Below are positions 2,067 through 21,716 of a stretch of 49,547 bases of DNA, piece after piece; positions within the stretch are counted from its first letter, which is position 1, and each line of letters starts with the position of its first letter. The stretch comes from Clostridium sp. (lineage in GTDB: Bacteria; Bacillota; Clostridia; Clostridiales; Clostridiaceae). The notes below the pieces were generated by a model. The model searched no databases. It was not told where the DNA came from and worked only from the letters and a program-made list of their open reading frames with translations. The translations under genes were made by a program, and so were the position numbers. The stretch lies in NCBI GenBank assembly GCA_031292145.1, contig JARLHR010000141.1, positions 1 to 49,547 on the forward strand, given 5' to 3'.

Positions 2067-2546
2067 ATGAACATTACTATAATAACAGTTGGTAAAATTA
2101 AAGAAAAATACTTAAGAGATGCTATAGAAGAATACTCAAAAAGATTAGGGAGGTATTGTAAGTTAGAGATAATAGAGCTAGCAGATGAAAAGACACCAGA
2201 TAATGCATCGGAAAAAGAAGAAGAAGCAATTAAAGAAAAGGAAGGTCAAGGAATACTGAATAAAATTAAAGATAATATGTTTGTAATAGCAATGGATTTA
2301 GGTGCCAAGCAATTGACTTCGGAAGAATTTGCAGATTACATAGAGAACTTAGGTGTAACAGGAAATTCAAACATAGCATTTATAATAGGAGGAAGCCTTG
2401 GAATTTCAAAAAGTGTTTTAACTAGAGCTAATTATAAAATATGCTTTTCAAAGATGACATTTCCTCATCAACTTTTTAGAGTTATGCTGTTGGAGCAAAT
2501 TTATAGAGGGTTTAGGATAATGAAGGGCGAACCATATCATAAGTGA
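2067..2546 (+). CDS. rlmH: 23S rRNA (pseudouridine1915-N3) methyltransferase RlmH
   Basis: A 159-residue SPOUT-class methyltransferase that methylates pseudouridine 1915 of 23S rRNA on the 70S ribosome. It has the expected family length, the SAM-binding loop 'FIIGGSLGIS' and the hallmark C-terminus 'HQLFRVMLLEQIYRGFRI' ending in KGEPYHK. GAAGGAG precedes the ATG. Its last codons contain the integration core GAACCATATCATAAGT, the same part of the gene that SCC elements use in staphylococci (where it is called orfX). The element that follows ends in a second copy of this core at 21701, so the gene is left intact by the insertion. Confidence 0.97.
   Translation: MNITIITVGKIKEKYLRDAIEEYSKRLGRYCKLEIIELADEKTPDNASEKEEEAIKEKEGQGILNKIKDNMFVIAMDLGAKQLTSEEFADYIENLGVTGNSNIAFIIGGSLGISKSVLTRANYKICFSKMTFPHQLFRVMLLEQIYRGFRIMKGEPYHK
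2529..2544 (+). other. attL core of the SCC-like element
   Basis: GAACCATATCATAAGT at the extreme 3' end of rlmH. It matches the known SCC attachment core pattern (GAAGC-n-TATCATAA-r-T) and is repeated with one mismatch at 21701-21716. Taking 21 bp around each copy there are three mismatches. Confidence 0.85.
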
Positions 2547-2602
2547 ATGCGAACTTTACTAAAATTGGATTAATTGTAGTGAATTTTAATAAGTAACATC
2601 GC

Positions 2603-2645
2603 TAATAATAGATATTTCAACATTATGTTGAAATATCTATTATTA
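2603..2645. terminator. Perfect 20-bp hairpin just inside the element
   Basis: A perfect inverted repeat (2603-2622 and 2626-2645) with a 3-nt loop, flanked by T-rich sequence on the right. It would end transcription from rlmH and shield the element. It lies about 60 bp inside attL. Confidence 0.7.
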
Positions 2646-2690
2646 TTGTATAGTATTATACATATCGTATAATTATAATATGTAATGAAA

Positions 2691-2714
2691 AATTGTATTA
2701 AATAATATACAATT
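2691..2714. promoter_or_regulatory. Palindromic operator candidate before the ParA-like gene
   Basis: AATTGTAT (2691-2698) and ATACAATT (2707-2714) form a perfect 8-bp inverted repeat with an 8-nt AT spacer, 26 bp before the start codon. Its placement suggests control of the ParA-SIR2 pair, possibly autoregulation; this is inference. Confidence 0.4.
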
Positions 2715-2740
2715 ATTAAATTGCTGAAATGGAGGTATGT

Positions 2741-3784
2741 ATGAAAGTTATTACTTTCTTTAATAATAAGGGTGGAGTGGGAAAGACCACTACAATAGTA
2801 AATTTAGCAAGTTATCTTAGTATATATAAAGAAAAAAAAATGTTGATTGTAGATTTAGACCCGCAATCAAATTCTACACAAGTTATAATACCAGAAGATA
2901 ATTGGAAAGAATTTTATAATGCTGATGCAAATAAAAAGACAATTTACGATTTTTTTAAACCTATGGATGCCGGTGATGCAACATTAAAAAATTGTGGAAT
3001 ATCAATGAAAGCTGATGAAAATAATTATAAAGTTGATTTAATACCAGGGCATCCTAATTTATCAATAATTGACGACTTGATGAGCAAATGTTGGTCAGGA
3101 ACATTGGGAACTGATAAGGGAGACATTAGAAAATTAAATTGGTTGAATCAATTAAAAAGTTTTTTCCCAGAATATGATTATATTTTTCTAGATGTAGGAC
3201 CTTCATTAGGTGCTTTAAATAGAAGTATATTATTAAATTCTGATTATTTCTTTACTCCAATGGCATCAGATATATTTAGTCTTTTAGGGGTAGAAAATAT
3301 TGAGACATGGATGTGCAGATGGATGGAATTATATCAGGATTCATTAAATAATTTAAGAAAAAGCAATCCTAATATGGATTTAGATGAATTTTTCAGCGAA
3401 TATTTAATAAATTCAGATACTAATAAGACAAGCCGGTTTATTGGATATTCAATACAACAATATTCAAAGCGTAAATTTAAGACTCATATTAGACCAACGC
3501 AAGCGTATGAAAGAGTAATACAAGATATTGATAGTGCTATAATACAACACTTGAGTTCATTAAAGAAGCAAGGATTGAGTAATGAGGATATAAAATTAGG
3601 AGATATCCCATATGTATATAGTATTATTCCATTATCTCAGACTTCTAATATGCCTATATTTGAATTATCTTATAAATCTGGTTTAAGAGGAAATCAGACA
3701 AGCAGTGTGAATGAGTATAAAGAATTTATTGAAAAAATAGCAGTTAATTTTCTTAGAAATGTTGGTGATTATTATGAAAACTAA
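2741..3784 (+). CDS. ParA/MinD-type ATPase paired with a SIR2-like gene
   Basis: A 347-residue P-loop ATPase. The deviant Walker A motif 'NNKGGVGKTTT' is at about residues 7-17, 'LIVDLDPQSNSTQ' follows as the A' region, and the Walker B-like 'YIFLDVGPS' lies near residue 145. This is the Soj/ParA class, which forms ATP-dependent dimers. I start at 2741 because GGAGG (2731-2735) lies 5 nt upstream; the upstream ATG at 2729 overlaps that site. No ParB follows; instead the SIR2-like gene overlaps its stop codon, so the two are translated together. The C-terminal 130 residues are not typical of plasmid ParA. The pair sits at the edge of a mobile element, so defence is more likely than partition, but partition of an excised element cannot be excluded. 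Confidence 0.85.
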   Translation: MKVITFFNNKGGVGKTTTIVNLASYLSIYKEKKMLIVDLDPQSNSTQVIIPEDNWKEFYNADANKKTIYDFFKPMDAGDATLKNCGISMKADENNYKVDLIPGHPNLSIIDDLMSKCWSGTLGTDKGDIRKLNWLNQLKSFFPEYDYIFLDVGPSLGALNRSILLNSDYFFTPMASDIFSLLGVENIETWMCRWMELYQDSLNNLRKSNPNMDLDEFFSEYLINSDTNKTSRFIGYSIQQYSKRKFKTHIRPTQAYERVIQDIDSAIIQHLSSLKKQGLSNEDIKLGDIPYVYSIIPLSQTSNMPIFELSYKSGLRGNQTSSVNEYKEFIEKIAVNFLRNVGDYYEN

Positions 3785-4637
3785 AATTGTTTGGCCAGCT
3801 AATCTGGTGGAAGAAATTGCATATAGAAGGTGCGTTATATTTTTAGGATCAGGTATCTCAGCAACAGCTAAAAATAGTGATATAAAAAGTCCACCAACAT
3901 GGGGAAAATTCATAGAAGATATTAAAGAACTTATTAAATCACCAACAATGGAAGACAATAATTTCATAGATCAAATGATAAAACAAGAAGATTATCTAAT
4001 GGCGTTACAAGCCATATATGATTTGAGTGATGCTGGATCTTATAATAAGTATTTAAAAGATACTTATGCAAGAGGTGGATATACAGCTTCAGAAACTCAT
4101 AAAACTATAAAAGCATTAGACAGTAAAATTGTGATAACTACAAACTTTGATAAAATATACGATAATCTTTGTAATGAAGATGCATATGTGGTATATGATT
4201 ATAGAAATACTCAATCTATAATAGGGAATATTAAATCTCCTGAATCGCTTATAATAAAGGCACATGGAACAATAGATGATACATCTAAGATTATTTTTAC
4301 AGGCAAGCAATATTACAAGGCACAAGCAGAATACCCAGAATTTTATTCATTGTTGCACTCACTATTTTTAACTAATACAGTAGTATTTTTAGGATATAGC
4401 CTAAGTGATCCAGATATAAATTTAGTATTGCAAAACATAAATAACACATCTAATCCAGCTTGTCCACATTATGTTGTTTTGAAAGAAGGAACATCAAAGC
4501 ATAGGATTAAACATTGGAAAGATACATACAATATTGAATCTCTAGAGTTTGGTGATAGTTATGAAGATTTACAAGAAAATCTTATGGAATTAAAAGAATT
4601 AGTAGAGAATCTTAGAGAAGAACGTTCAATATATTAA
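3774..4637 (+). CDS. SIR2-like (SIR2_2) domain protein, candidate defence NADase
   Basis: A 287-residue SIR2-fold protein. Motifs visible are the nucleotide-binding 'VIFLGSGIS' near residue 22, 'KIVITTNFDKIYDNL' in the middle, 'IIKAHGTIDD' with the likely catalytic histidine, and 'VVFLGYSLSDPDI'. This bacterial SIR2 group consists mostly of defence proteins that destroy NAD+ on infection (as in Thoeris ThsA or DSR2), not deacetylases; activity here is inferred. The start at 3774 has GGTGAT upstream inside the ParA gene; the reading frames overlap by 11 nt. There is no other fused domain, so sensing would have to come from the ParA-like partner. Confidence 0.8.
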   Translation: MKTKIVWPANLVEEIAYRRCVIFLGSGISATAKNSDIKSPPTWGKFIEDIKELIKSPTMEDNNFIDQMIKQEDYLMALQAIYDLSDAGSYNKYLKDTYARGGYTASETHKTIKALDSKIVITTNFDKIYDNLCNEDAYVVYDYRNTQSIIGNIKSPESLIIKAHGTIDDTSKIIFTGKQYYKAQAEYPEFYSLLHSLFLTNTVVFLGYSLSDPDINLVLQNINNTSNPACPHYVVLKEGTSKHRIKHWKDTYNIESLEFGDSYEDLQENLMELKELVENLREERSIY

Positions 4638-4644
4638 ATTTGGA

Positions 4645-4682
4645 AAAGTGATATTAGTAATTTATATTAATATCACTTTAAA
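4645..4682. terminator. Hairpin between convergent SIR2 and endonuclease genes
   Basis: AAAGTGATATTA (4645-4656) pairs with TAATATCACTTT (4668-4679) around an 11-nt loop. It lies between two converging genes and can serve both strands, though the T-tracts are short. Confidence 0.6.
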
Positions 4683-4693
4683 TTATTATTAAG

Positions 4694-5296
4694 CTATCTT
4701 AAAGCCCTACCATCAGTACCTTTCTTTAAAGGCGGGATTTCAGAAGAAATCGAATCATGCTCTATTTCATAAATGATTAAAGCACCTTTATTTATATTAT
4801 AATTAGCATATTTCCAAACTGGAAAGTAAGGTTCTAATTCTCTAAAGTTTCCAACTCTATCGGTTAAGTAATTATACATTTCTCTTGAGGGTAATACTAA
4901 GATGCCACAAACTAAAGATCCTTTAAGCAAGCCAGACACCATTTTATTTATTGCTCTATGAGATGAACTAATATTGCCAGTTTCCCATTCTAGAGCTATA
5001 TGAGAATTTTCAAAAGGATAAGTTGCATCAATAGGTCCAGGTTTGCTTACAGTTACACCAACATCTAATCTATATTCTAATATCCAACCATGATTTTGAA
5101 GATTATTCATAAATTCTTCTTTAATAGGTTTAACTCCATTTGATTTGAACTTGGAATGAAGTGTAAAATTGCCAGATCCTATAGGATTATCAATTGCACA
5201 AATTTCCTTTTCTACATTCCTAAGTATTTCAGAAATACCTGTATTATCTAGTGTATCATTAATGTTTAAAATAATATTTTTGCTTTTAATTTTCAT
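4694..5296 (-). CDS. BamHI-like type II restriction endonuclease
   Basis: A 200-residue protein that I recognise as close to BamHI. The shared blocks include 'ALEWETGNISSSHRAINKM' (residues 101-119), 'NYLTDRVGNFRELEPYF' (142-158) and the C-terminal 'KKGTDGRALR'. The metal-binding residues of BamHI (Asp94, Glu111, Glu113) correspond to Asp90, Glu103 and Glu105, so the enzyme looks active. Length agrees with BamHI (213). By homology the target is probably GGATCC, but specificity is inferred. AAGGAG precedes the ATG. It is divergent from its methylase. No separate C-protein gene of the kind found in the BamHI system is visible. Confidence 0.93.
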   Translation of the reverse strand: MKIKSKNIILNINDTLDNTGISEILRNVEKEICAIDNPIGSGNFTLHSKFKSNGVKPIKEEFMNNLQNHGWILEYRLDVGVTVSKPGPIDATYPFENSHIALEWETGNISSSHRAINKMVSGLLKGSLVCGILVLPSREMYNYLTDRVGNFRELEPYFPVWKYANYNINKGALIIYEIEHDSISSEIPPLKKGTDGRALR

Positions 5297-5326
5297 AAAT
5301 ATTCTCCTTTAAAAAATAAAATCCGG

Positions 5327-5352
5327 AAAGTGAGATCCATAAAGTGAGATCC
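5327..5352. repeat. Two 12-bp direct repeats at the endonuclease start point
   Basis: AAAGTGAGATCC occurs at 5327-5338 and again at 5341-5352, a 14-bp period. Read on the minus strand they begin immediately after the endonuclease -10 box, covering about +1 to +27 of the transcript. That is the place for a repressor. The N-terminal region of the methylase is a candidate binder. Confidence 0.7.
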
Positions 5353-5359
5353 TGATGTA

Positions 5360-5388
5360 ATAATATTACAAAAAAATCTATATGTCAA
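5360..5388 (-). promoter_or_regulatory. Sigma-A promoter of the endonuclease gene
   Basis: On the minus strand TTGACA (5383-5388) and TATTAT (5360-5365) are separated by exactly 17 bp. The -35 is perfect. It directs transcription into the endonuclease gene across the two direct repeats. Confidence 0.75.
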
Positions 5389-5454
5389 TAGAATTATAAA
5401 AGAAATTTTATAAAAAGTATGATAGAATATTATAATTAATAAGAGGTGATAATT

Positions 5455-6645
5455 TTGGCTAATAATAAATTTCATATAAATAAACTATTTAAAGTTCTAA
5501 AAATTAATAATAAAAATGATTTGAAAAATACAGCTAAAGAATTGAAAATTTCATTAGCACAACTAGAGTTTTATAATAATAAAATGATATTACCATATAA
5601 AGCAGATCTTAAAAAAATATTAAACTTTACAGGCTATTCAGAATTTGAATTAAAAATAAGACTTGGAATAGTTGATAATGAAATAATAGAATGGATATCA
5701 AATAATCCAGAAGTAATAACGAAGGTCTATTGTGATAAAAACAATAAGGAAAGTGAAAAAAAACATTCACCAGAATTTACAACTGATTATGGAAGGATGT
5801 TTAGAGGGGATTGTTTGGAGATTATGAAACAATTGCCTGATGAATCCATGGAATTAATTTTTGCAGATCCGCCTTTTAATTTAGACAAAAATTATGAATC
5901 AGGAATAAATGATTATGTGTCTGAGCAAGAGTATATTCTTTGGACTGAAAAATGGTTATTGGAATGCATCAGAATATTGGCTCCAGGAGGTTCTATGTTT
6001 ATATATAATTTACCTCAATGGAATACATATATTTCGGCAATATTAAATAAATATTTAAATTTTAGACATTGGATAGCTATATCAATGAAAGGATTAATGC
6101 CAGTAACTAATAAGTTACATCCAGAGCATTATGGTTTGCTTTATTATGTTAAGGGTGAAAAACCTAAAGTATTTAATAAGCAAAGGATACCTATGGAAAC
6201 ATGTAGACACTGTGGTGGAGAAATTAGAGATTATGGAGGTAAGAAAAAAGATTTAGATCCTAAAGGATTATCAATTCCAGATATATTTATGGATATAAAT
6301 CCTGTTAGGCATCAAAAATATAAAAATAGAGAAGCAAATGAATTACCGTTAAAATTACTTTATAGAATAATATCTATTGCGTCAGATGAGGGTAGTACCA
6401 TATTTGATCCATTTGGAGGAAGTGGAACTACTTATGTTGCAGCTGAATACTTGAAAAGAAAATGGGTAGGTGTAGAAATAGGAAGTATCAATGATATAAT
6501 TGAACGGTTTGCCAATAATTCTACAGATTTGGAGTTACTAAAATCTATTGAAAGTCAGAGTAATGTCTTATTTACTAACGAACAAGTAAAATTGAGAGAA
6601 AAAAATGAATTTTGGGGATATGAAAAATTAGAGAAGAAAATCTAA
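5455..6645 (+). CDS. BamHI-type DNA methyltransferase (beta class, probably N4-cytosine)
   Basis: A 396-residue methyltransferase with catalytic motif IV 'IFADPPFNL' (about residues 135-143) ahead of the SAM-binding motif 'FDPFGGSGTT' near the C-terminus, the beta-class order. A small metal-knuckle-like 'CRHCGGEI' lies between. It is the protective partner of the divergent BamHI-like nuclease; M.BamHI is an N4-cytosine enzyme, so the same product is inferred. The first 75 residues resemble a small helical DNA-binding module and could repress the nuclease promoter. I choose TTG 5455 because AGAGGTG (5442-5448) lies just upstream; the GTG at 5446 overlaps that site. Confidence 0.9.
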   Translation: MANNKFHINKLFKVLKINNKNDLKNTAKELKISLAQLEFYNNKMILPYKADLKKILNFTGYSEFELKIRLGIVDNEIIEWISNNPEVITKVYCDKNNKESEKKHSPEFTTDYGRMFRGDCLEIMKQLPDESMELIFADPPFNLDKNYESGINDYVSEQEYILWTEKWLLECIRILAPGGSMFIYNLPQWNTYISAILNKYLNFRHWIAISMKGLMPVTNKLHPEHYGLLYYVKGEKPKVFNKQRIPMETCRHCGGEIRDYGGKKKDLDPKGLSIPDIFMDINPVRHQKYKNREANELPLKLLYRIISIASDEGSTIFDPFGGSGTTYVAAEYLKRKWVGVEIGSINDIIERFANNSTDLELLKSIESQSNVLFTNEQVKLREKNEFWGYEKLEKKI

Positions 6646-6697
6646 TTAAAAAAGGCGAAATGATAAGAAGAATAAATATATATTATAATACTGAAAA

Positions 6698-6735
6698 ACT
6701 CATATCATTAGAAATAGTGATATGAGTCTTTTTTA
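6698..6735 (+). terminator. Terminator of the methylase gene
   Basis: ACTCATATCA (6698-6707) and TGATATGAGT (6718-6727) form a perfect 10-bp stem, followed by CTTTTTTATTT. Confidence 0.85.
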
Positions 6736-6754
6736 TTTCAAGGAGGTAATAAAG

Positions 6755-7105
6755 ATGATAAAATTGTATAAAACAGAACAACTAGAGAAACTAAAAGAAA
6801 AATACCCAAAGGAAATGCTACAAGAAGCAGAAGAAATAATAACGCTATTGGATGAAAACTATGGAGTAAATAGAGAGGTAGACAAAGAACTAGGAGGATA
6901 CATTTCAATATTGGAATCAAAAGAAGATGTTACAGAAATAAAAGCTAGTAGTACAAAAGGACTACTTCCAGAGTACACAGATATTATAAAGAGTGATGAT
7001 GGTATTGATTACTATTCGTCACTTTTTCTATTATCCGATGATTATTCTATTATAGTGTTTTCAACTAAGGAGCTTCACGAAATTCTAATAGAAAAGGAGT
7101 TGTAA
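6755..7105 (+). CDS. Uncharacterised 116-residue protein
   Basis: Starts at 6755 behind a near-perfect AAGGAGG (6740-6746). The protein begins with a charged helical segment (LYKTEQLEKLKEKYP) and ends in a short beta-rich stretch 'YSIIVFSTKELHEILIEKE'. I recognise no family. It forms a two-gene unit with the 100-residue gene five bases downstream, and the pair is closed by a terminator. Its place within the element suggests element maintenance or an anti-defence/defence accessory, but nothing in the sequence decides this. Confidence 0.7.
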   Translation: MIKLYKTEQLEKLKEKYPKEMLQEAEEIITLLDENYGVNREVDKELGGYISILESKEDVTEIKASSTKGLLPEYTDIIKSDDGIDYYSSLFLLSDDYSIIVFSTKELHEILIEKEL

Positions 7106-7110
7106 TTATA

Positions 7111-7413
7111 ATGGCAAAACAGACTGAAACCAAAATAATCAAAGAAACGAGCTATTGCAAAATCTATAATAAAGTAAGCATAGAAGATGATGAATATAAT
7201 AGTTGTATTGAAAGAATATGTGTAAAAAGCAAAAATAGAGAAGAGATAAGGTTTGCACTATACAGAAGTGACGACAGATATATTCCTAGGAGTCTTGACC
7301 TTAGTGAGATACAACTATTGGAGCTTATTAAGCTTGCAATAAAAGAGAAAGTATTCTCAGATGAATTCATTGATATGTTAAAACAAGAATTAAGTAATAA
7401 CAAAAAATCCTAA
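7111..7413 (+). CDS. Uncharacterised 100-residue protein
   Basis: Follows the previous gene by 5 bp with GGAG 11 nt before its ATG, so the two are co-translated. The sequence is mixed alpha/beta: a beta-rich first half with one CIERIC cysteine pair, then a helical 'LSEIQLLELIKLAIKEK'. It resembles many small phage or plasmid proteins, but I know no function. The stop codon lies inside the stem of the terminator that ends the pair. Confidence 0.7.
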   Translation: MAKQTETKIIKETSYCKIYNKVSIEDDEYNSCIERICVKSKNREEIRFALYRSDDRYIPRSLDLSEIQLLELIKLAIKEKVFSDEFIDMLKQELSNNKKS

Positions 7414-7446
7414 TTGCTAAATTAATAGTGATTAGGATTTTTCTAT
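7405..7446 (+). terminator. Terminator overlapping the stop of the preceding gene
   Basis: AAATCCTAAT (7405-7414) pairs with ATTAGGATTT (7431-7440), followed by TTTTTC. Confidence 0.75.
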
Positions 7447-7537
7447 AGATTCGGGTGAAATCTATAAGAGTATTTTACTATAAAAAAGTATTCATATGTA
7501 AGAAAAAATTGATATTAATAAATAATATTTTGAAAAA

Positions 7538-7790
7538 GCCCCGCAAGAAAAAAATAACGGGGCGGAATCCCCCGCTTGTAAACCTAGTAATATCAACAAT
7601 TCCCCCGTAAACCCCGAAAACCCGTTAGAAATGATAGCGTATATAAAAGCTTTTTTGTAAATCTAAAATAAAGAAATGAGTGTAGCATGAAAATTTGGCG
7701 GGAAAGCGGGGATTGCGGGGCAAATGAGTGATAGTAAGCATTTCCGCGTGGGGAATGTAAAAAAGCAAACGGGGGAAACGGGGAAATAAA
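7538..7790 (+). other. GC-rich structured segment, copy 1
   Basis: Unlike its AT-rich surroundings, this non-coding segment has a C-rich half (7538-7625) followed by a G-rich half (7695-7790). GCCCCG (7538-7543) pairs with CGGGGC (7558-7563). Short repeats CCCCG separated by TAAA/AAAA at 7602-7624 can pair with CGGGGG-AAA-CGGGG around 7770-7785. It shares 'AAACCTAG', 'TAGTAATATCAA' and the CCG-n-AAA repeats with the segment at 14687-14912. Candidates are a replication origin or single-strand initiation site for the element, or a regulatory RNA. Confidence 0.55.
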
Positions 7791-7800
7791 TAAAATGTAA

Positions 7801-7932
7801 AGGAATAAGAAAGATACAAATATCACAGAAAGATTAAAGGAATGTGGAAATATACTAGGTATTAAGCTAATTGACCATATAATCATAGGTGATGATCCAT
7901 ATTACAGCCTAAAGGAAAAAGGGATAATCTAA
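7801..7932 (+). pseudogene. radC: C-terminal fragment of a RadC/JAB-domain gene
   Basis: The reading frame gives 43 residues containing '[15 protein letters not shown]' and '[10 protein letters not shown]', the C-terminal signature of RadC (MPN/JAB-like metalloprotein). An in-frame stop lies just before 7801 and no start or N-terminal half is present. The sequence before it is the GC-rich segment, so the 5' part was deleted. RadC-like genes are frequent passengers of SCC and other mobile elements. Confidence 0.75.
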
Positions 7933-7975
7933 AAAATTGTAATAAGCTCAAATAAGAAATGGAGATGTGTAAAAA

Positions 7976-8581
7976 ATGATTATGAATAATAATAACTTTT
8001 CATCAATAATACAAACATTCATGATGAACGAAATAAATTCAGTAATAAATAGATATAGCAATATAGAGGCAAAGAAATTGGAGTATGTAGAAGCTCTAAT
8101 ATCAAAAGTAGATGGTGCATTCAAAGAGGAACTAGTACAAGATTTTGATAAGGCATTGAAATTAGCAACAGAAATTGGGGAAAAACATGTGGACAACTTC
8201 AAAATAAATGTATTTCTGTGGATAAAAAACAATTCTAAATTGGAACTAAATATAAGTGAAGTAATAGAATACATTGAAGAAGCTGAAGAGAATGGATATG
8301 TTCCAATAGATGAAGGTATTATAATCTATAAGAAAAATAGTGATATGACACATTTTGCAAGAAAAAAATTAGAAAATATGCTGGAGCAAGAACGATTTGT
8401 AGATAAACTTTTGGATAAAGATTCACTAATAGAGTACTGGATGAATGGCACTAGCAAAGATGATGTTATACGAGAGCTTGTAAATGGTATTGAAGTAGAA
8501 GAGCTTCTAGACTTTGATTCAAAATTCATAATAGAAAATGAACATGGAGAAGAATATATGTATGCAGAAATAGATTATTAA
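7976..8581 (+). CDS. Uncharacterised 201-residue helical protein
   Basis: A mostly helical, charged protein without membrane segments or a recognised motif. GGAG lies 11 nt before the first ATG. It is followed by a terminator, so it may be its own transcript. Located between the dead radC fragment and the DUF960-like gene; probably part of the element's backbone. Function unknown. Confidence 0.65.
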   Translation: MIMNNNNFSSIIQTFMMNEINSVINRYSNIEAKKLEYVEALISKVDGAFKEELVQDFDKALKLATEIGEKHVDNFKINVFLWIKNNSKLELNISEVIEYIEEAEENGYVPIDEGIIIYKKNSDMTHFARKKLENMLEQERFVDKLLDKDSLIEYWMNGTSKDDVIRELVNGIEVEELLDFDSKFIIENEHGEEYMYAEIDY

Positions 8582-8582
8582 T

Positions 8583-8616
8583 AAGGCTACTTTTCATAGG
8601 AGAGGTAGTCTTTTTT
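8583..8616 (+). terminator. Terminator after the 201-residue protein gene
   Basis: AAGGCTACTTTTC and GGAGAGGTAGTCTT form an imperfect stem around a 3-nt loop, followed by six Ts. Confidence 0.7.
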
Positions 8617-8653
8617 CATATGCCTAAATAAAGTGAAAGAAGAGTGATAAAAA

Positions 8654-8956: not shown

Positions 8957-8971
8957 AAACTGTAATTTATG

Positions 8972-9325: not shown

Positions 9326-9423
9326 AATAACCTCCTATAAAATTCCGTAAATAACGTATATATGAATAGTATAAACAAAACTAAAGAGATTGTAAAATCT
9401 TTGTATTATTGGTCATATACACC

Positions 9424-9445: not shown

Positions 9446-9461
9446 TTAAATACCGTATAAT
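9434..9461 (+). promoter_or_regulatory. Rightward promoter of the HTH switch
   Basis: TTGTAT (9434-9439), 16-bp spacer and a perfect TATAAT (9456-9461), 22 bp before the TTG start of the small HTH gene. Confidence 0.6.
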
Positions 9462-9675: not shown

Positions 9676-9686
9676 AAGGACAAAAG

Positions 9687-14681: not shown

Positions 14682-14686
14682 GGCGT

Positions 14687-14912: not shown

Positions 14913-14952
14913 ACTATAAAATATCGGTATAAAATTGAAAGGATGAAGTAAT

Positions 14953-15522
14953 ATGTCAGTAAAAAGAAGAATACAACCAGAAAATAATATGAATGGAGAA
15001 GTGGTAAACATGGATAAAAACATACAAGAAACAAATGTACAAGCAGAAGAAATAGTAACAGAAGGACAAGCTCCAGAAGCAACTATAACAGAAAATACAG
15101 AAGAAACTGCAACAATAGACGAAGCCAATGTAACTGAAATAGTAAGGAATGCAACTCCATGTTCGGCTAAAAATATCATAAGAGCAACTTCTAATAAAGG
15201 AGGTTTCTCAGTAGTAAAAGCCCAATCAGGCAATAGGGCTACAATTGCAAAACAAGGATATGAGCATCTAGGAAAGCCACGCGCATTGCAATTTGCATTC
15301 ACTGATACAAGTGTAATAATTGGAGCTAATTTACCTAATAACAATAATGATTTTAATGTAAAAGATAGCAATGGAAAAGCAATTGTATACTCAACACCGC
15401 TGGTAAGAGAAATTGCAGAAGCATTTGAGCTAGATTTCGATAACAGAACGTCCATGACTTTTGGAGATATCCAATACACTAATAGCGAAAACTCACCAGT
15501 AATAATAGTAAAAATCAAGTAA
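14953..15522 (+). CDS. Uncharacterised 189-residue protein with disordered N-terminus
   Basis: The first 70 residues are rich in Glu, Thr, Asn and Ala and probably disordered; the C-terminal 110 residues look folded (GFSVVKAQSGNRATIAKQGY, ... FTDTSVIIGANLP). AAAGGATG precedes the ATG. It lies between the helicase and the recombinase and is followed by a strong hairpin (15535-15561). No family recognised; a DNA-transaction role is suggested only by position. Confidence 0.65.
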   Translation: MSVKRRIQPENNMNGEVVNMDKNIQETNVQAEEIVTEGQAPEATITENTEETATIDEANVTEIVRNATPCSAKNIIRATSNKGGFSVVKAQSGNRATIAKQGYEHLGKPRALQFAFTDTSVIIGANLPNNNNDFNVKDSNGKAIVYSTPLVREIAEAFELDFDNRTSMTFGDIQYTNSENSPVIIVKIK

Positions 15523-15534
15523 TGCCAATAACAA

Positions 15535-15561
15535 GTCTTGGAGGAACAAAACCTCCAAGAC
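15535..15561 (+). other. Hairpin after the 189-residue protein gene
   Basis: GTCTTGGAGG (15535-15544) and CCTCCAAGAC (15552-15561) form a perfect 10-bp stem around a 7-nt loop. There is only a short A-rich stretch after it, no T-tract. The stem sequence is nearly repeated at 16028-16058. Confidence 0.65.
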
Positions 15562-15598
15562 GATAAAAACAAATCTAAGTGATAAGGAGTTTTGTGTA

Positions 15599-16021
15599 AT
15601 GTATAACTTTGGAATGGGTATAAATGATAAATTTGAAAATAATGAGATAAAGTCTAGTATTGAATTTCTACAAGGAAATGGCAATTCTAATAGTCAAGAT
15701 GGAGCAATGAACTATGGATTCAGAATAAAAATTCCAAAGAATCCCCTTGAAGATACAAAAGCACTAAGGTACATTAGCAATTTGTTGAAAGATAAAAGCA
15801 TAGATGTATCTATAAACATAAATGAAATCTCAGTAGAATTCAAAATAACCTATGAAAACCATATTGATGTAAACACAATATCAGAGCTAAACTCATGTGT
15901 TGAAACTAACATAAATGTAGTAACAAAAGCACTAAATGTTTTTGAAATACATGAGTATGAGGTAATAAGCCTATTCTATCTTGGATGTGAACAATTAGAA
16001 ATGGAAGATATACTAATGTAA
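15599..16021 (+). CDS. Uncharacterised 140-residue protein
   Basis: AAGGAG lies 10 nt before the ATG. The protein starts with a Gly/Asn-rich segment and continues as an alpha/beta domain ('LLKDKSIDVSININEISVEF'). It is the last gene before the recombinase unit, and a hairpin follows (16028-16058). Function unknown; its constant place beside ccr-type genes would need comparison with other elements. Confidence 0.6.
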   Translation: MYNFGMGINDKFENNEIKSSIEFLQGNGNSNSQDGAMNYGFRIKIPKNPLEDTKALRYISNLLKDKSIDVSININEISVEFKITYENHIDVNTISELNSCVETNINVVTKALNVFEIHEYEVISLFYLGCEQLEMEDILM

Positions 16022-16027
16022 CAAAAT

Positions 16028-16058
16028 GAGTCTTGGAACACAGAAAATTCCAAGACTC
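16028..16058 (+). other. Hairpin before the recombinase unit
   Basis: GAGTCTTGGAA (16028-16038) and TTCCAAGACTC (16048-16058) form a perfect 11-bp stem around a 9-nt loop. No T-tract follows. It nearly repeats the stem at 15535-15561. Confidence 0.65.
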
Positions 16059-16143
16059 CATACTAGACAAATGTTTGCTAAATGAATCATAAATATTTAT
16101 CAAATATATATTATAAATTGGATACTAGAAAGGATGAATAAAG

Positions 16144-16296
16144 ATGGAAAACAAAAGGGAACAGGCAACTATAAATGAAATAATTGAGGTGATATCTGAA
16201 ATCATCCTTAAAGCTAGTATCAAGAAATTTGATAGTAGGGATGTGGATAAGAATGTCAAAGAAAGTAGCAATATATACGAGAGTTTCAACTACTGA
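16144..16296 (+). CDS. 50-residue protein overlapping the recombinase start
   Basis: ATG at 16144 behind AAAGGATG encodes a small charged helical protein (ENKREQATINEIIEVISEII...). Its last 44 nt overlap the recombinase gene in another frame. The recombinase's own ribosome binding site is poor, so reading this frame probably delivers ribosomes to it. A recombination directionality factor would be of this size, but no similarity is visible. Confidence 0.5.
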   Translation: MENKREQATINEIIEVISEIILKASIKKFDSRDVDKNVKESSNIYESFNY

Positions 16297-17917
16297 ACAA
16301 GCAGAAGAGGGATACAGTAGTGAAGAGCAAGAGAAAATAGGAACTAAATATTGTGCCGATAATGGATATGAGGTATATAAAATATATTCTGATAAAGGTA
16401 TAAGTGGTAAATCCATAAAGGCAAGACCAGCAATGAAAGAGCTTTTAAAGGACGCAGAAGAAAAAAAGTTTGATATGGTCATAACATGGAAAATCAATAG
16501 AATAGCAAGAAATATGTTAGACTTACTTAAAATAGTGGATTTGCTAGAGAAGAATAATATATCATTCAAATCATATTCAGAGAACTTTGAAACAGAAACA
16601 CCTATGGGAAAATTCTCACTACAAATGATGGGAGCAGTTGGAGAGCTAGAACGTGGAACAATAGCACAGAATGTAAAGATGGGAATGTTAGCAAGGGCTA
16701 GAGAAGGTCGTTGGAATGGAAATATATTACTTGGATATAATTTGAAGGAAAGAACTGATTCAACTAATAAAAAGAGAAAAGATACAGAACTAATAATAAA
16801 TGAATCAGAAGCAGAGATTATAAAAACCATTTTTACTATGTACTCAGAAGGCAATGGGTATAAGGCAATAACAAGTTATCTAAATAGGTTGGGCTATACA
16901 ACTAAAAGAGGAAATCCATTCTCGGTAAATGCAATAAAGGACATACTCAAAAATCCAGTCTACATAGGAAAGATAAGGTACAATGTCCTACAAAATTGGA
17001 GTGAGAAAAGAAGGAGACATAAAAATGCTAATCCACTAATAGTAGATGGAATACATGAACCAATAATAGACCAAGAGCTTTGGGATAAAGTGCAAAAAAT
17101 GATGGAAGATAGCAAGGGAAAGCCATCTAGAATATATGATGGAGAGTTTCCACTAACTGGAATTCTAAAATGTCCTGTATGTGGTTCTGGTATGGTAATC
17201 ATGAGAAGTACTAATACAAGAAAAGATGGGACTAAGCATAGGATTGAATACTATTGTTGTGGTGCTTGGAAGAATAAAGGAACGGCAGTTTGCCATAGTA
17301 ATTCAATCAATGTTAATAAGGCTAATGATTATGTGTTTGGTAAGCTATCAGAACTACTAAATAATGATAAGTTAATCAAAGATATAGTAGCTAATATAAA
17401 TACAACTAGAAAAGCTATGGTAGACCCATCAAAAGATGAACTAGAAAAGATTTTGAAGGAGCTGGAAAAGGTTGAAGCTAAGAAGAAGAAAGTATTTGAA
17501 GCCTACGAGGAAGAAATAATAACTAAAAAAGATTTCTCAGACAGAATGGCAGACATAAAATCTAGGGAAGAAATGCTCCAACAGGATGTAAACAACCTAA
17601 AGAGCAACATCCTAGATGATGGTGTGCAGGAGGTTTCGTATGAGTTTGTAAGAGAAATACTATCAAGTTTCAGTAAGATGCTATCAGAGTTGCAGTCAAG
17701 AGAGCAACAGAAAAGACTACTACATATGTTAATTTCTAAAATAACTATAAATAAAACTAGAGATATAGAATCAATAGAACTTAACATCAATGATAACTTA
17801 ATAATGTACCTACGTAATGGAGGAGAACCAAATCCAGATGGAGGCGGTTCTCCTTCTTATTTTGCACCTAGAAGAAGATTGATGATAGATCCTGTAAATA
17901 TAAAAATTTTTATATAA
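16253..17917 (+). CDS. Large serine recombinase (CcrC-like integrase)
   Basis: A 554-residue recombinase. The resolvase-type catalytic domain starts with 'VAIYTRVSTTEQAEEG', whose serine (residue 11 or so) is the nucleophile, and continues with 'DMVITWKINRIARN' and 'FSLQMMGAVGELERG'. A recombinase domain (YNLKER ... GYKAITSYLNRLGY), a zinc ribbon 'CPVCGSGMVIM ... CCGAWKNKG ... C' and a coiled coil (about 390-470) follow, the standard large-serine-integrase order. It should insert and excise the element at the rlmH core. I start at ATG 16253, after the weak GTGG; earlier codons have no site. As a single gene it resembles CcrC rather than CcrAB. Confidence 0.92.
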   Translation: MSKKVAIYTRVSTTEQAEEGYSSEEQEKIGTKYCADNGYEVYKIYSDKGISGKSIKARPAMKELLKDAEEKKFDMVITWKINRIARNMLDLLKIVDLLEKNNISFKSYSENFETETPMGKFSLQMMGAVGELERGTIAQNVKMGMLARAREGRWNGNILLGYNLKERTDSTNKKRKDTELIINESEAEIIKTIFTMYSEGNGYKAITSYLNRLGYTTKRGNPFSVNAIKDILKNPVYIGKIRYNVLQNWSEKRRRHKNANPLIVDGIHEPIIDQELWDKVQKMMEDSKGKPSRIYDGEFPLTGILKCPVCGSGMVIMRSTNTRKDGTKHRIEYYCCGAWKNKGTAVCHSNSINVNKANDYVFGKLSELLNNDKLIKDIVANINTTRKAMVDPSKDELEKILKELEKVEAKKKKVFEAYEEEIITKKDFSDRMADIKSREEMLQQDVNNLKSNILDDGVQEVSYEFVREILSSFSKMLSELQSREQQKRLLHMLISKITINKTRDIESIELNINDNLIMYLRNGGEPNPDGGGSPSYFAPRRRLMIDPVNIKIFI

Positions 17918-17941
17918 AAATTAAGAAAATATTGTAAAATA

Positions 17942-17950
17942 TGCTATAAT
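17942..17950 (+). promoter_or_regulatory. Extended -10 promoter for the cyclase-like gene
   Basis: TGCTATAAT matches the extended -10 pattern TGnTATAAT. It lies 81 bp before the next start codon. The -35 region is weak, as usual for this promoter type. Confidence 0.5.
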
Positions 17951-18030
17951 TAATCCATTACGATGTAGAAATGATAATTTGTATTCTGTAAAGATAAAGA
18001 GAACACATTAAAGTATAAAGGAGAGGTAAA

Positions 18031-18708
18031 ATGAATAGTACCAAGCTTAAAAACTACTATATAGCATATATTGATATTTTAGGAATGAAGAATAAGATGG
18101 AAAAATATACTGAACAAGATTTTAATGAGTTATGTAATAAAATATCGAAGTTAGTTAAGAGTATAATTTCAGGAAATCAATCTAATGAAAAATATGGAGT
18201 TGCGCATATTGACTTTCATATGTTTTCAGATAATATGATTTTTCTTTGTGAAGATTTTAGTACTCTAATTGATTTCATTGCACTTTTGCAACGTCGAATA
18301 ATTGTGCAGTTGAAATTATTAATTAAGGGAGGAATAAATTACGGAAGCGTATACTATGAAAAAGGTCAGTTTTTACTTGGCAAGGGTTTGCTTTATGCAT
18401 ACAAGTTAGACGAAGATTACCATAATCCAGCTATTAGGATTGAAAAATCAATAGCAGAGAAATATGATATAGGAACGACTATTAAGCAACTATCTTATGA
18501 TGAATTTATTGTTGACTATTTATATCATTCCTTGGGTTATGATAGATATGATTTTGAAGAATATGATTTGCCTTCTCATAAGAATATTATAGTTACTGGA
18601 TTGAGTAGTAATAAAAACTTTAAAGTTTTAGAAAAATATAATTGGCTAAAAGAATATCATAATTTATTTTGTAGAGAGCAGAATTTATTGGGGCAAATTA
18701 TTGATTGA
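18031..18708 (+). CDS. Cyclase-fold-like protein (YIDILG family), possible nucleotide signalling
   Basis: A 225-residue soluble protein. Motifs resemble a divergent class III nucleotidyl cyclase: 'YIAYIDILGMK' with a candidate metal-binding Asp at residue 14, 'HMFSDNMIF' with a second Asp, and 'IKGGINYGSVYYEKGQ...GKGL..AY', which recalls the conserved 'GI.tG.V' region. Some class III cyclases (Pycsar) make cCMP or cUMP to trigger phage defence. Catalytic activity is not shown and the fold assignment is by eye. AAGGAGAGG precedes the ATG. It is followed by a HEPN protein 88 bp later, which could be its effector or an unrelated gene. Confidence 0.5.
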   Translation: MNSTKLKNYYIAYIDILGMKNKMEKYTEQDFNELCNKISKLVKSIISGNQSNEKYGVAHIDFHMFSDNMIFLCEDFSTLIDFIALLQRRIIVQLKLLIKGGINYGSVYYEKGQFLLGKGLLYAYKLDEDYHNPAIRIEKSIAEKYDIGTTIKQLSYDEFIVDYLYHSLGYDRYDFEEYDLPSHKNIIVTGLSSNKNFKVLEKYNWLKEYHNLFCREQNLLGQIID

Positions 18709-18796
18709 GACATATAAGTTTATACAATCTACTGAGTTATTTAATGTAATATCAATGAAATGATGTAGATAAATAGTAAATTTGTGGAGGTGTTAT

Positions 18797-19798
18797 ATGG
18801 GACTTACAATGCTCGGAAATGGGCTTGATTTTATCATAAATTCAATAATACATTTAAAAGAAGCAGAGCAGGAAAGTTGCAAAAGTAAAGAAAAAGAAAT
18901 TAAGTATAGTTTATTACATTTGTCATCAGGAATAGAACTTATATTAAAGAGTAGGTTATATAGGGAACACTGGACTTATATTTTTTCAGATATGAATAAA
19001 GCAAATAAAGAGAATTTGAAAAATGGATCTTTTAAAAGTGTGGAAAGTGCTATCCTTATTGATAGGTTGAAAATATTATGTGGTATTAATATAGATAACG
19101 ATAGTAAGAATGCGTTTGAAAATCTGAGAAAATTAAGAAATCAAATGGAACATTTTACAATAAAGGACAACTTCCCAGCAGTTGAAGCTTGTATTAACAA
19201 AGCTTTAGTGGAAGTAAGTAAATTTATTACTAACAATTATAATGATTTTACATCTCCATTAACAATGAGCTTTAAGGATGATGATGATGAATTTGGATTA
19301 ACACAAGAAGAAGAAAAGTTAATTGAAGAATTAATTAAATATATAGCTAAACTTAAGGAACATTATGATGATGCTATAAAAATAGCAACAGTTAAAGCAC
19401 AGGATGAAGCTGTATTACATGAATTATTGAAATGTCCATCTTGTAAGGAAAAGTTATTGAAGTGCAATTATGACGATAATATGTGTCATTGCTTTTTTTG
19501 TACATATGAAGAAAAGGGTGAAAAGGTTGCTGAAGAATACCTTAATGAAATACAAGGATTAAGCCAATATGAAATTGTTAAAGATGGAGGAAAATATCCT
19601 TTGTATAAATGTCCAGATTGTGATAGAAATTCTATGGTTAATGTTGGTGGAAAGTATGTATGTTTTTCTTGTGGAATGTATTATAGAGAGAATGAGGTAG
19701 CATTTTGTGATAAATGTAGTGTGTTATATATAAAGGAAGATGATAATTCAGAACTATGTCATTCTTGCGCTGAATATAAAATTGTAGAGAACAAATGA
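18797..19798 (+). CDS. HEPN-domain protein with C-terminal zinc ribbons
   Basis: A 333-residue protein. The N-terminal 150 residues are helical and contain 'LRKLRNQMEHF', in which R114-x4-H119 is the RNase motif of HEPN domains. The rest holds at least three CxxC zinc-ribbon motifs ('CPSCKEKLLKC', 'CPDCDRN ... CFSCGM', 'CDKC ... CHSCAEYK'). HEPN RNases cleave RNA in toxin-antitoxin and anti-phage systems; the zinc ribbons may recognise nucleic acid or mimic ribosomal parts. I start at 18797 behind GGAGGTG; the frame extends upstream only through that site. Confidence 0.7.
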   Translation: MGLTMLGNGLDFIINSIIHLKEAEQESCKSKEKEIKYSLLHLSSGIELILKSRLYREHWTYIFSDMNKANKENLKNGSFKSVESAILIDRLKILCGINIDNDSKNAFENLRKLRNQMEHFTIKDNFPAVEACINKALVEVSKFITNNYNDFTSPLTMSFKDDDDEFGLTQEEEKLIEELIKYIAKLKEHYDDAIKIATVKAQDEAVLHELLKCPSCKEKLLKCNYDDNMCHCFFCTYEEKGEKVAEEYLNEIQGLSQYEIVKDGGKYPLYKCPDCDRNSMVNVGGKYVCFSCGMYYRENEVAFCDKCSVLYIKEDDNSELCHSCAEYKIVENK

Positions 19799-20201
19799 TA
19801 AACTACTTTCATGACTAATTAGTAATTACACAAATCCAAATTGTACCATAGGCTAATGGTAATTAACAGAGCAGGTGGAAATTCTCTCAATAAGGTTTAG
19901 CAAACTAACGGTAACGAGTGTTGAGTTGTCATGAGTAATGGTGGAGTTAAGGTTAAGTGTGTGACAGCGAGAAAGTAGGGTTGAGTCTCGAAATTTTTTA
20001 TATCAGAGGGCTGACGTCTTAATTGGTGCGGAAAGCAACATTTCATCTATGTCGGAATGTCAAGAACTATGTTGCACTTTAGGTGAAAAGGACTAATCAT
20101 GATTCGAATTGTGGTTAATTAATATAGAAGAGCCAAATTAGATAGAAGTAGTGATCTTTTTTCTTTTGTTGGGATAAGAAAGTTGGTGAAAAATTATTCA
20201 A
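19799..20201. other. 400-bp gene-free stretch holding a possible structured RNA
   Basis: No convincing open reading frame in either strand. Base composition changes between about 19830 and 20130 to G-rich, less A/T-rich sequence, unlike the flanking coding DNA. The candidate RNA is listed separately. The last 60 bp before 20202 return to the usual composition. Confidence 0.6.
19830..20130 (+). ncRNA. Candidate structured RNA of unknown class
   Basis: Evidence is composition and local pairing. GCAACAT (20034-20040) pairs with ATGTTGC (20069-20075), and AAAG/CTTT extend that stem past a 2-nt bulge. CGAGA pairs with TCTCG across 19968-19990. AGTTGTCATG, GTGTGACAGCGAGAAAG and GAGGGCTGACG recall the purine-rich joints of large RNAs. 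I could not assign it to a known family: no group II domain V, no tRNA-like or retron partner. It sits between the HEPN gene and the zinc-knuckle gene and might be the RNA partner of either. Confidence 0.4.
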
Positions 20202-21668
20202 ATGAAAAATGAAATAACAATGCAAGATTATAAAAAAGTATTGCCTAAAGTTGAAATTTATGCAACAAATGTATGGAATGATATAATTAATGAAAATCAA
20301 ATAGAGGCATACAATTCATATAGAAAATTAAGTAAAAGTAGAAAGGATGATTGGAAAACAAAGCATGATTGCATGTTTCCTGGTTGCTTAAAAAAATCAA
20401 TTTCTCAATCACACTCAATTCAAAAAGCTGTGTTAAGTAAATTCATAGCCGAGAACGATCATGTGTATCATTTTGTATGTAGTGATGAACCAATGAATAC
20501 TAAGCTAGAAATGAAAGATGTAAGTATAAATGTTGCTTCTACATTTCCTGGATTTTGTATTAAACATGAATCTGATTTTAAATTTGAAAAGTATAGAAAA
20601 ATAGATACAGAAGATGATTTTGTATTACAAATTTTTAGAACCGTATGTAGAGATCTAGCTGAAAAGAAAAATACGCATGATAATTTAAAAAAGATGTATC
20701 AGAAAAGTAAAGATAAAATTTATCCTAAAATAAAAAAGAAATTTGAAAATCATTTAAATAAATCTATGAATGAAGAAATGTATGAACAATTAAAAAAGGA
20801 TTTTTTCTATGTTAATTATGAAATGAAATTATTAGTTGAAAGATTTAAGCATGAAGTTACTTTGTATACAAAATTTTATGAAGAAGCTTGTAAAACCTTA
20901 TTAAAAAAAGAAAAAAGACTAATATATAAATATTTAGAAGTAGATGTTGAGTTACCTATATGCCTAGCTGGTACGGTTGGAGTTAGGAAAACTGAAAATA
21001 GTGAAGATGGATTGTTTATTTTCAATATCTTACCTAATAATAATAAATTATTGATTTGCATAGCTACTTTAGAGGAATACAAAGATTTAATGGAAACATT
21101 TTTTGATGAAAGAACAGTTAATAAACTAAATATTTTAGGCATGATAGAAAGTTTGATGGTTTATGGTACAGAACAGTGGTACATAAAGAAAAGTGAATGG
21201 TTAAAAATTGATAAAGATAAAAGAAATATTATTATGAATGATATAGTAGATTGCTCGCATAATTTTTCTGAACCATATAAATTTTCTATTTTTGATGATC
21301 TTAGAAAAAAATATATTGAAGAATACGAACTCAATATTGATAAAGAGTTATTAGATGAAAATAGTATTAGTGAAGCCATTCAGAATATTTACAATATAAT
21401 AATAGAGAAATTTGGTGATAGGGAGATTAATGATGAAATTTGGGATAAATACTTAGATAATAATGAGGATATCAAAAAGTATCAAGAAAATATGAAATTA
21501 TATCATATAGTTGAATTAAATAAAGATATATTAAATAAAAAAGCTAATATAAATGAGATAAAAACTATAGAAGAGATAATAGATAAAAATAGATGTTCAT
21601 ATTTAGGTTGTAAGGCAAATCTAAAGCATGAATATTATAGTAAACATGCTATTTACTATAATAAGTAA
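20202..21668 (+). CDS. Uncharacterised 488-residue protein with zinc knuckles at both ends
   Basis: Near the N-terminus 'CMFPGCLKKSISQSHSIQKA' gives C-x4-C-x8-H, followed by 'STFPGFCIKHES' with a further Cys-His pair, together an HNH-like or zinc-finger arrangement. The last 25 residues repeat the idea: 'CSYLGCKANLKHEYYSKHA'. In between is a long charged helical region. I have no named family. Genes with the 'FPGC...SHSI...FPGFC..H' pattern occur among defence genes in my memory, but that is not evidence here. It is the last gene before attR. Its ribosome binding site (GGTGA, 11-12 nt upstream) is weak. Confidence 0.6.
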   Translation: MKNEITMQDYKKVLPKVEIYATNVWNDIINENQIEAYNSYRKLSKSRKDDWKTKHDCMFPGCLKKSISQSHSIQKAVLSKFIAENDHVYHFVCSDEPMNTKLEMKDVSINVASTFPGFCIKHESDFKFEKYRKIDTEDDFVLQIFRTVCRDLAEKKNTHDNLKKMYQKSKDKIYPKIKKKFENHLNKSMNEEMYEQLKKDFFYVNYEMKLLVERFKHEVTLYTKFYEEACKTLLKKEKRLIYKYLEVDVELPICLAGTVGVRKTENSEDGLFIFNILPNNNKLLICIATLEEYKDLMETFFDERTVNKLNILGMIESLMVYGTEQWYIKKSEWLKIDKDKRNIIMNDIVDCSHNFSEPYKFSIFDDLRKKYIEEYELNIDKELLDENSISEAIQNIYNIIIEKFGDREINDEIWDKYLDNNEDIKKYQENMKLYHIVELNKDILNKKANINEIKTIEEIIDKNRCSYLGCKANLKHEYYSKHAIYYNK

Positions 21669-21692
21669 TTTAACCGATTATCACTTGCTACT

Positions 21693-21710
21693 GATACGGT
21701 GAACCGTATC
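21693..21710. repeat. Perfect palindrome overlapping attR
   Basis: GATACGG-TGAA-CCGTATC: 7-bp arms around TGAA. The right arm overlaps the attR core. Only the attR copy is fully palindromic; the rlmH copy has A instead of G at the key position. Serine recombinase sites are often imperfect palindromes. Confidence 0.6.
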
Positions 21711-21716
21711 ATAAGT
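21701..21716 (+). other. attR core of the SCC-like element
   Basis: GAACCGTATCATAAGT, differing from the core inside rlmH (2529-2544) only at the sixth base. Marks the right end of the element, 33 bp after the last element gene. Confidence 0.83.

Follow-up and report, generated by a model that had tools for sequence, protein, structure and literature searches.

We analysed a 49,547-nucleotide stretch of DNA from Clostridium sp. (GenBank assembly GCA_031292145.1, contig JARLHR010000141.1, forward strand), called the window below, which is the whole of one contig (C23) in a 6.34-Mb genome of 282 contigs. Near its left end lies rlmH, the genome's sole match to the SPOUT methyltransferase family PF02590, and the 19.2 kb that follow the 3' end of this gene (2529-21716) are our subject. 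Elements of the staphylococcal cassette chromosome (SCC) type are known for spreading methicillin resistance, and how they gather their cargo is poorly understood. A first-pass annotation, made from the sequence of the window alone, had described the 19.2 kb as an SCC-like mobile element in a clostridial background. The features that bear most directly on this description are as follows.

2067-2546, plus strand: rlmH, the target gene, reading frame intact (PF02590 3.8e-62)
2505-2546, plus strand: left attachment site, attL, comprising the rlmH-type left half TTTAGGATAATGAAGGGC and the core GAACCATATCATAAGTGA; presumed crossover dinucleotide GA at 2529-2530
8654-8956, plus strand: DUF960 protein (PF06124 3.4e-23; 40% identical to the DUF960 protein of staphylococcal SCC)
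12912-14681, plus strand: Cch-type DUF927 helicase (PF06048 1.9e-43; PF18662, 'Cch helix turn helix', 6.4e-26; NF047345 307 bits, cut-off 700)
16229-17917, plus strand: Ccr-type large serine recombinase, single copy, nearest CcrB, with the invariant YxRVS serine
21677-21718, plus strand: right attachment site, attR, comprising the P-type left half TATCACTTGCTACTGATACGGT and the core GAACCGTATCATAAGTAA

The annotation correctly reported that a 16-bp core at the end of rlmH recurs about 19.2 kb away with 15 of 16 bases unchanged: GAACCATATCATAAGT lies at 2529-2544 within the last rlmH codons, and GAACCGTATCATAAGT lies at 21701-21716 on the same strand, a spacing of 19,172 bp. The 16-mer by itself is only moderate evidence, because a third match in the window has 3 mismatches and 1.4 matches are expected by chance at such looseness. 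Stronger support comes from the surrounding bases. The 24 bases preceding the right copy recur together with the copy at six places on another contig of the same genome (C270), with 2-3 mismatches per 37 bases to a pattern derived from the window's own right site, and the last 27 bases of the right site recur across the genus, with 0 control matches. As in SCC, the insertion is at the 3' end of rlmH, and the flanking direct repeats contain TATCATAA with a dyad at the far end. The crossover dinucleotide is presumed to be GA, from the dyad centre and from a passage of PMC10581047. When the two flanks are joined in silico at this central GA, the C terminus of RlmH is unchanged; the predicted resealed junction reads ...GAAGGGCGAACCGTATCATAAGTAACG... 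and the predicted circle junction reads ...GATACGGTGAACCATATCATAAGTGAATG....

The recombinase encoded between the repeats has Resolvase, Recombinase and zinc ribbon domains and belongs to the Ccr family. Among the NCBIfam hidden Markov models it scores best against CcrB (410 bits), ahead of CcrC (362) and CcrA (99), and all three scores lie below the curated cut-offs (900, 900 and 700, respectively). Relative to proteins from an SCC copy carried on a staphylococcal plasmid, it is 46% identical to CcrB over 382 amino acids (aa) and 23% identical to CcrA. A tree calculated without CcrC puts CcrB on a long branch next to Paenibacillus relatives, a placement that the program flagged as unsure. The helicase is 29% identical to staphylococcal Cch over 533 aa, so the expected homology to Cch is borne out, and a Cch replication gene stands beside ccr as it does in SCC. 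Its matches in the structural database are PDB 5dgk (E 5.2e-62, titled 'Active helicase'), which we take to be the SCC Cch, and 8tch. The claim that the window has the defining architecture of SCC thus holds for the rlmH 3' end, the att motif, the Ccr-family recombinase, Cch and DUF960. The likeness is less clear for the ccr gene complex, there being one recombinase among the open reading frames (ORFs) scanned rather than a ccrA-ccrB pair. A radC-like gene had also been listed with the DUF960-like gene, and no Pfam match to radC was found among the scanned ORFs.

The remaining genes of the element are these.

2729-3784, plus strand: ParA-like ATPase (AAA_31 1.6e-32)
3759-4637, plus strand: SIR2-like protein, candidate defence cargo (SIR2_2 3.9e-24; PADLOC ThsA models 4.8e-22)
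4694-5296, minus strand: BamHI-type restriction endonuclease (PF02923 2.7e-53; REase_II 6.1e-72)
5446-6645, plus strand: DNA methyltransferase, presumably paired with the BamHI-type endonuclease (N6_N4_Mtase 3.8e-39; MTase_II 1.7e-143)
6722-7105, plus strand: 127-aa backbone ORF
7111-7413, plus strand: 100-aa backbone ORF
7976-8581, plus strand: 201-aa ORF, common to some of the elements
8972-9325, minus strand: HTH_3 regulator (6.6e-15)
9409-9675, plus strand: HTH_3 regulator (2.6e-15)
9782-10603, plus strand: choline-binding-type repeat protein (6.4e-12)
11327-12250, plus strand: 307-aa ORF, no family above cut-off
12414-12836, plus strand: 140-aa ORF immediately 5' of the helicase gene (weak match to NF046043, 7.5e-05, below cut-off)
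14682-14952: intergenic stretch 3' of the helicase gene with short direct and inverted repeats, a candidate origin
14953-15522, plus strand: 189-aa ORF; the predicted model has an ordered C-terminal alpha/beta part and no significant fold match
15599-16021, plus strand: 140-aa ORF, common to two close elements
18031-18708, plus strand: 225-aa ORF, cargo (phrog_23933 2.6e-15, unknown function)
18782-19798, plus strand: PDC-S64-like protein, candidate defence cargo (PADLOC PDC-S64 3.3e-23; DUF3644 21.5 bits, cut-off 27.6)
20202-21668, plus strand: 488-aa ORF, cargo, no family matched

Defence-type cargo had been predicted, and we agree: the BamHI-type enzyme and its methyltransferase are clear, and the SIR2-like protein with its ThsA-type match and the PDC-S64-like protein are candidates. 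Relatives of the two restriction genes (positions 3404 and 4758; 55% for the BamHI-type enzyme and 51% for the methyltransferase) make up shared restriction cargo in an rlmH-linked Ccr locus of another class, that of Thalassobacillus sp. CUG 92003 (L241). No resistance gene appears among the Pfam matches of the scanned ORFs, resistance databases not having been searched, and a Foldseek search with predicted models of the 127-aa and 189-aa ORFs gave no match at E<=0.001. We considered whether the element is instead an integrative mobilizable or conjugative element, or a prophage, that carries a Ccr-like integrase. Such elements often have large serine recombinases, and ParA is present here; yet the scanned ORFs include no relaxase, coupling protein or virion gene, and both Cch and DUF960 have homologues among SCC genes. 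We therefore reject a prophage or conjugative element as such and regard this whole class of explanation as barely credible.

The annotation had called for comparison with genomes in which rlmH is empty, and the two features that matter for this lie to the right of the element.

21719-30150: second block, with an ABC-2 transporter operon, a MerR regulator and a choline-binding-repeat protein; right edge at about 30150-30350, no recognised right-end site
30420-32324, plus strand: acyl-CoA dehydrogenase/ETF/rubredoxin gene (Pfam), the chromosomal right flank of rlmH in relatives

Empty rlmH genes do exist. Three relatives (G002, G003 and G013) have about 0.46 kb of intergenic DNA after rlmH and then the acyl-CoA dehydrogenase gene that starts at 30420 in the window. 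The absent stretch is longer than had been foreseen: homology with these relatives restarts at 30351-30353 by BLAST and at about 30150 by eye. Since the alignment restarts only at about 30.2-30.35 kb, the window contains a second block, of 8.4 kb, in addition to the 19.2-kb element. We rejected the alternative of a single element that fills all 27.6 kb before the syntenic flank, as the right-end site at 21701 agrees with the consensus of 50 such sites; inspection of the right edge of the second block revealed nothing site-like. The end of the element at 21716 is accordingly placed by the att site and not by a genome that lacks exactly that block. Near its right edge the second block also carries a ZMP/ZTP riboswitch (29820-29899, 39.5 bits against a gathering threshold of 39), which may be a remnant; a T-box at 5143-5441 of locus L144 was the only other hit when the window and six loci were scanned with Rfam.

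We next place the element among its relatives in a comparison set of 68 genomes of the genus, for each of which 20 candidates were scored in the recombinase search. Matches at E<=1e-60 occur at 22 places in 19 of the 68 genomes, a count that includes two fragments (G047) and a relative of 34% identity (G028). One Ccr relative (G009, C13:60305-61942) has a single in-frame TAA. A full ccr gene lies between two sites in 13 segments, 11 of which begin at rlmH and measure 11.8-19.2 kb (the window, G029, G031, G033, G049, G064, G063, G014, G011, G009 and G059); one of the other two lies elsewhere in G059, and one, in G062, starts at a contig edge. The 127-aa ORF, the 100-aa ORF and DUF960 are kept in all 14 other Ccr-bearing Clostridium regions compared. 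The half-site at the right end tracks the Ccr clade, reading TATCAC...GGT in five of five members of the clade with at least 79% identity and ending in GGA in 10 of 10 others. More widely, rlmH lies within the fetched flank (at most 10 kb) at 25 of 79 loci with Ccr relatives, a further match of 28% (L276) having been excluded as doubtful, and in 13 of the 25, mostly from Paenibacillus, it is oppositely oriented. At L275, L285, L287, L291 and other Paenibacillus loci, rlmH follows ccr at a distance of no more than about 0.3 kb and runs antiparallel to it, which suggests insertion with ccr at the rlmH end.

The genomes also contain many copies of the sites away from rlmH, which are not visible from the window alone. 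The pattern of the right end has 148 matches in 49 of the 68 genomes (reversed-pattern control, 0), a figure that includes the right ends of rlmH elements and at least four rlmH ends caught by the loose pattern (G001, G018, G032 and G037) and counts four near-palindromic sites on both strands (G003, G007, G012 and G028). The two richest genomes, G012 and G023, have 12 and 15 matches, of which 12 and 12 are far from rlmH. The rlmH-like left end has 61 matches in 30 genomes (control, 0); by coordinates, 24 are rlmH itself, 2 are at contig edges and 35 lie elsewhere. Across the order, one or more right-end matches occur in 128 of 225 genomes (the 68 included) and in 36 of 56 genera, compared to 5 matches in total for the reversed control. 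The window's own genome has one left-type and six right-type sites on one strand within 30 kb of C270 (25887-55931), and the right flank of C270 is homologous to that of an rlmH island in G033.

These sites share a common anatomy. The right-end consensus (n=50) is TATCACTTgCtAcTGATACGGt|GAACCaTATCATAAaTaA, with a dyad about GA, and P-type sites are near-palindromic (GATACGG TGAA CCGTATC). The consensus of secondary left ends (n=40) is aaggTTTAGGATAATgAAgGGT|GAACC, with informative columns from about -25 to +18, and in the rlmH sites (n=19) conservation reaches further upstream, into coding sequence. Conservation inside the search patterns is partly built in, because the sites were picked by similarity. 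Regions with three or more sites have a single orientation in 10 of 11 cases; over all regions the count is 129 to 1, with regions turned by a reference site and lone sites positive by construction. Some segments (G007C16 at 3216 and 6867; G012c 6017-11576) have a right boundary of the B-type rather than the P-type half, which may bear on how docking sites spread. A leader, ATRTNTATAATGGGAAGTTGATG (at most 6 mismatches), starts 64-77 bp upstream of GAACC at 18 of 40 secondary left ends, a flattering count because the motif was read off some of the same sites; it is found at none of the 19 rlmH sites and at 1 of 73 right-end sites (shuffled mean, 0.24). Over ten genomes the leader motif has 30 matches versus 10 when reversed. 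It also occurs without a site, several times ahead of a start codon as we read the sequence. By analogy it recalls the integron promoter, and its sequence appears promoter-like.

A simpler account would be that Ccr moves the rlmH elements alone and that the dispersed sites are an unrelated att-like intergenic repeat of the hairpin or terminator type. The near-palindromic form of P-type sites, the many solitary left-type sites and the many site-bearing genomes without Ccr at E<=1e-60 would all fit such a repeat. It does not readily explain why the secondary left halves resemble the rlmH half-site from about -25 to -1, the span of a footprint, and not the coding sequence upstream, nor does it predict the shared orientation within regions. 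The DNA between the sites provides further evidence against it.

Neighbouring sites delimit 66 segments with a median length of 3.1 kb (range, 0.9-19.2 kb), 13 with a full ccr and 53 without. Among 20 proteins sampled, the cassette genes encode nitroreductase+LysR, MFS+LysR, MarR+MATE, MerR/GyrI+TrmO, LysE+HTH-cupin, short-chain dehydrogenase, sigma factor+DUF4179 and others. A remnant of the ccr 3' end opens six of the segments lacking ccr, at 34-68 bp inward from the left site, and lies deeper in four others; these segments look like internally deleted elements. Within the portion that the remnants retain, the 3' end of ccr has an inverted repeat (window about 17819-17855, GGAGAACC...GGTTCTCC) with a possible function in cis.

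If segments are exchanged at the sites, homology between genomes should switch there. We compared 118 homology blocks (at least 350 bp and 75% identity, excluding pairs with both members in rlmH regions) and counted a border as at a site when, in both partners, it lay between -32 and +40 bp relative to one. Twelve of the 118 blocks begin and 11 end at a site, compared to means of 0.018 and 0.012 and maxima of 2 and 1 in 2000 sets of randomly shifted sites. The rows are not all independent, since a single MarR+MATE cassette accounts for five of the 12 and a single shared right-end segment for five of the 11; about 8 beginnings and 7 ends are thus distinct. In the clearest case, the MerR+TrmO cassette occupies the first position at rlmH in G023 and the first position at a different locus in G003, with 89% identity over 1678 bp; in both genomes the homology starts 17 bp ahead of one core and stops 21 bp past the other. 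At the second locus, which we call VanZ after what we take to be an upstream gene, G013 has three cassettes, G002 has one and G003 has at least three segments. In G013, the MarR+MATE cassette closes the array ahead of the right-flank gene. G002 has this cassette alone, separated from the flank gene by transposase-like DNA. In G003, a broken copy of the flank gene and further DNA come after it, and the other cassettes lie on the docking-site side. The left end of the rlmH element in G064 is also the left end of the non-rlmH element in G059 (98% over 2874 bp). These switches in both partners, together with a cassette found both at rlmH and elsewhere, make an unrelated repeat a poor explanation, and we consider it very improbable.

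The arrays could alternatively have been born at rlmH as composite SCC, from where chromosome rearrangement or homologous recombination later dispersed them, with no site-specific insertion at secondary sites. Composite SCC are known, and the right flank common to C270 and the G033 rlmH island fits such scattering. Against this, secondary left sites in loci common to two species (G007C7/G049C118, G031C239/G049C100 and G013a/G003vanZ) precede different DNA, and the leader found at 18 of 40 secondary sites is absent from all 19 rlmH sites. Scattering from rlmH strikes us as unlikely, albeit less so than an unrelated repeat.

Based on these observations, we read 2529-21716, with good confidence, as an SCC-type integrative element and as an autonomous member of a Ccr-driven cassette system with an integron-like layout. 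In the mechanism we envisage, the single CcrB-like serine recombinase would join a circle (P-core-P') to the 3' end of rlmH (B-core-B'), and crossover at the central GA would let RlmH keep its C terminus. The Cch helicase probably begins replication of the excised circle, and ParA, the BamHI-type restriction system and the SIR2-like protein may serve maintenance of the element and protection of the host. The same recombinase family appears to act on the short cassettes without ccr, which have the same ends and are arrayed in one direction, both at rlmH and at secondary docking sites sharing the B half-site. These cassettes would depend on Ccr supplied in trans from an rlmH element.

Several observations weigh against this interpretation. 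The empty rlmH sites are short of about 27.6 kb and not of the element alone, and no genome turned up that lacks just 2531-21702. When the right flank (21730-30400) was compared with the 68 genomes, there was no clean empty site and no second-block match adjoining rlmH, and hence no genome shows the 19.2-kb block alone missing. The recombinase scores under every curated Ccr cut-off and is single, versus the CcrA and CcrB pair that accompanies Cch in staphylococci; Cch itself is detected (E<=1e-5) in just 6 of 14 related elements. Seven genomes with arrays or cassettes (G002, G003, G007, G012, G013, G022 and G023) have no Ccr at E<=1e-60 among the 20 candidates scored in each and thus lack a known resident enzyme. 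Left-type sites without a recognised right-end site in the stretch taken occur in at least 20 fetched regions (G012e and G000_C146 among them), and some of the 53 segments without ccr may be plain DNA between sites rather than cassettes. Excision and the circle are inferred rather than observed.

We also advance a broader proposal, on which we find ourselves evenly divided: that Clostridia own a Gram-positive counterpart of the integron, in which the Ccr serine recombinase of SCC-type elements at rlmH captures small gene cassettes and shuffles them into arrays at promoter-bearing docking sites across the chromosome, SCC elements being the autonomous members and some cassettes arising by deletions that leave a ccr 3' remnant. 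A genus with arrays of att-framed cassettes of one to a few genes, and with a single cassette present both at rlmH and elsewhere, would make capture, order and loss directly testable and would suggest that gene capture in arrays extends beyond integrons with tyrosine recombinases. The arrays are new as far as we have searched: among the literature matches listed, no title or abstract start reports such arrays in Clostridium.

The element itself is a new member of an SCC-like class already published at rlmH outside staphylococci, and in this respect the annotation was right about the Clostridium host and wrong if taken to mean a first case. Insertion of this type is described for the Enterococcus elements named ECC in PMC6222049, and for several Bacillota in PMC10061031 and PMC10581047; the latter names Clostridioides difficile at rlmH, and PMC10061031 puts examples from C. 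difficile and C. perfringens in ssrA. We call the element SCC-like rather than SCC because its host is a Clostridium and not a staphylococcus or a close relative. PMC7581432 distinguishes pattern 1 (LP1413 and Cch with CcrA/CcrB) from pattern 2 (CCPol-MP-Cch2 with CcrC). Like pattern 1, the element has the rlmH 3' end, defence-type cargo and homologues of Cch, CcrB and DUF960, and its 140-aa ORF at 12414-12836 occupies, by analogy, the position of LP1413, without LP1413 itself having been identified. It differs from pattern 1 in having a single recombinase beside the pattern-1 helicase, a Clostridium host, the extra 127-aa and 100-aa backbone ORFs and related site arrays away from rlmH. The repeat of one staphylococcal SCC, as given in PMC10581047, is GAAGC(A/G)TATCATAA(G/A)TGA, compared to GAACC(A/G)TATCATAAGT(G/A)A here.

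ECC likewise inserts at rlmH and, according to PMC6222049, has att sites of about 50 bp with TATCATAA and a dyad in attR; unlike our element, it has ccrAB, measures 21-78 kb and gives fewer than 5 att hits per genome, mostly near ccrAB. The rlmH islands of Bacillota with Pol-SSB pairs share the helicase, the large serine recombinase or recombinases and the conflict genes (PMC10061031), whereas no A-family polymerase was found among the ORFs scanned here, and dispersed arrays are not mentioned in the available text of that paper. Pseudo-SCC and composite SCC resemble the present system in their att-framed blocks without ccr and several rlmH-end repeats, but here the blocks occupy many loci, behind left ends that share the half-site and often the leader. 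Integrons proper were rejected, the recombinase being of the serine and not the tyrosine family, though IntI was not searched for genome-wide. A docking site followed by an array of single-site cassettes corresponds to the integron in layout only, since here the recombinase is a serine enzyme, the sites are GA-centred dyads and the cassettes often have regulators of their own. The likeness to integrons and integrase-less cassette clusters nevertheless extends to small one-site cassettes in one orientation, a docking site with a promoter-like leader and arrays in genomes with no detected recombinase.

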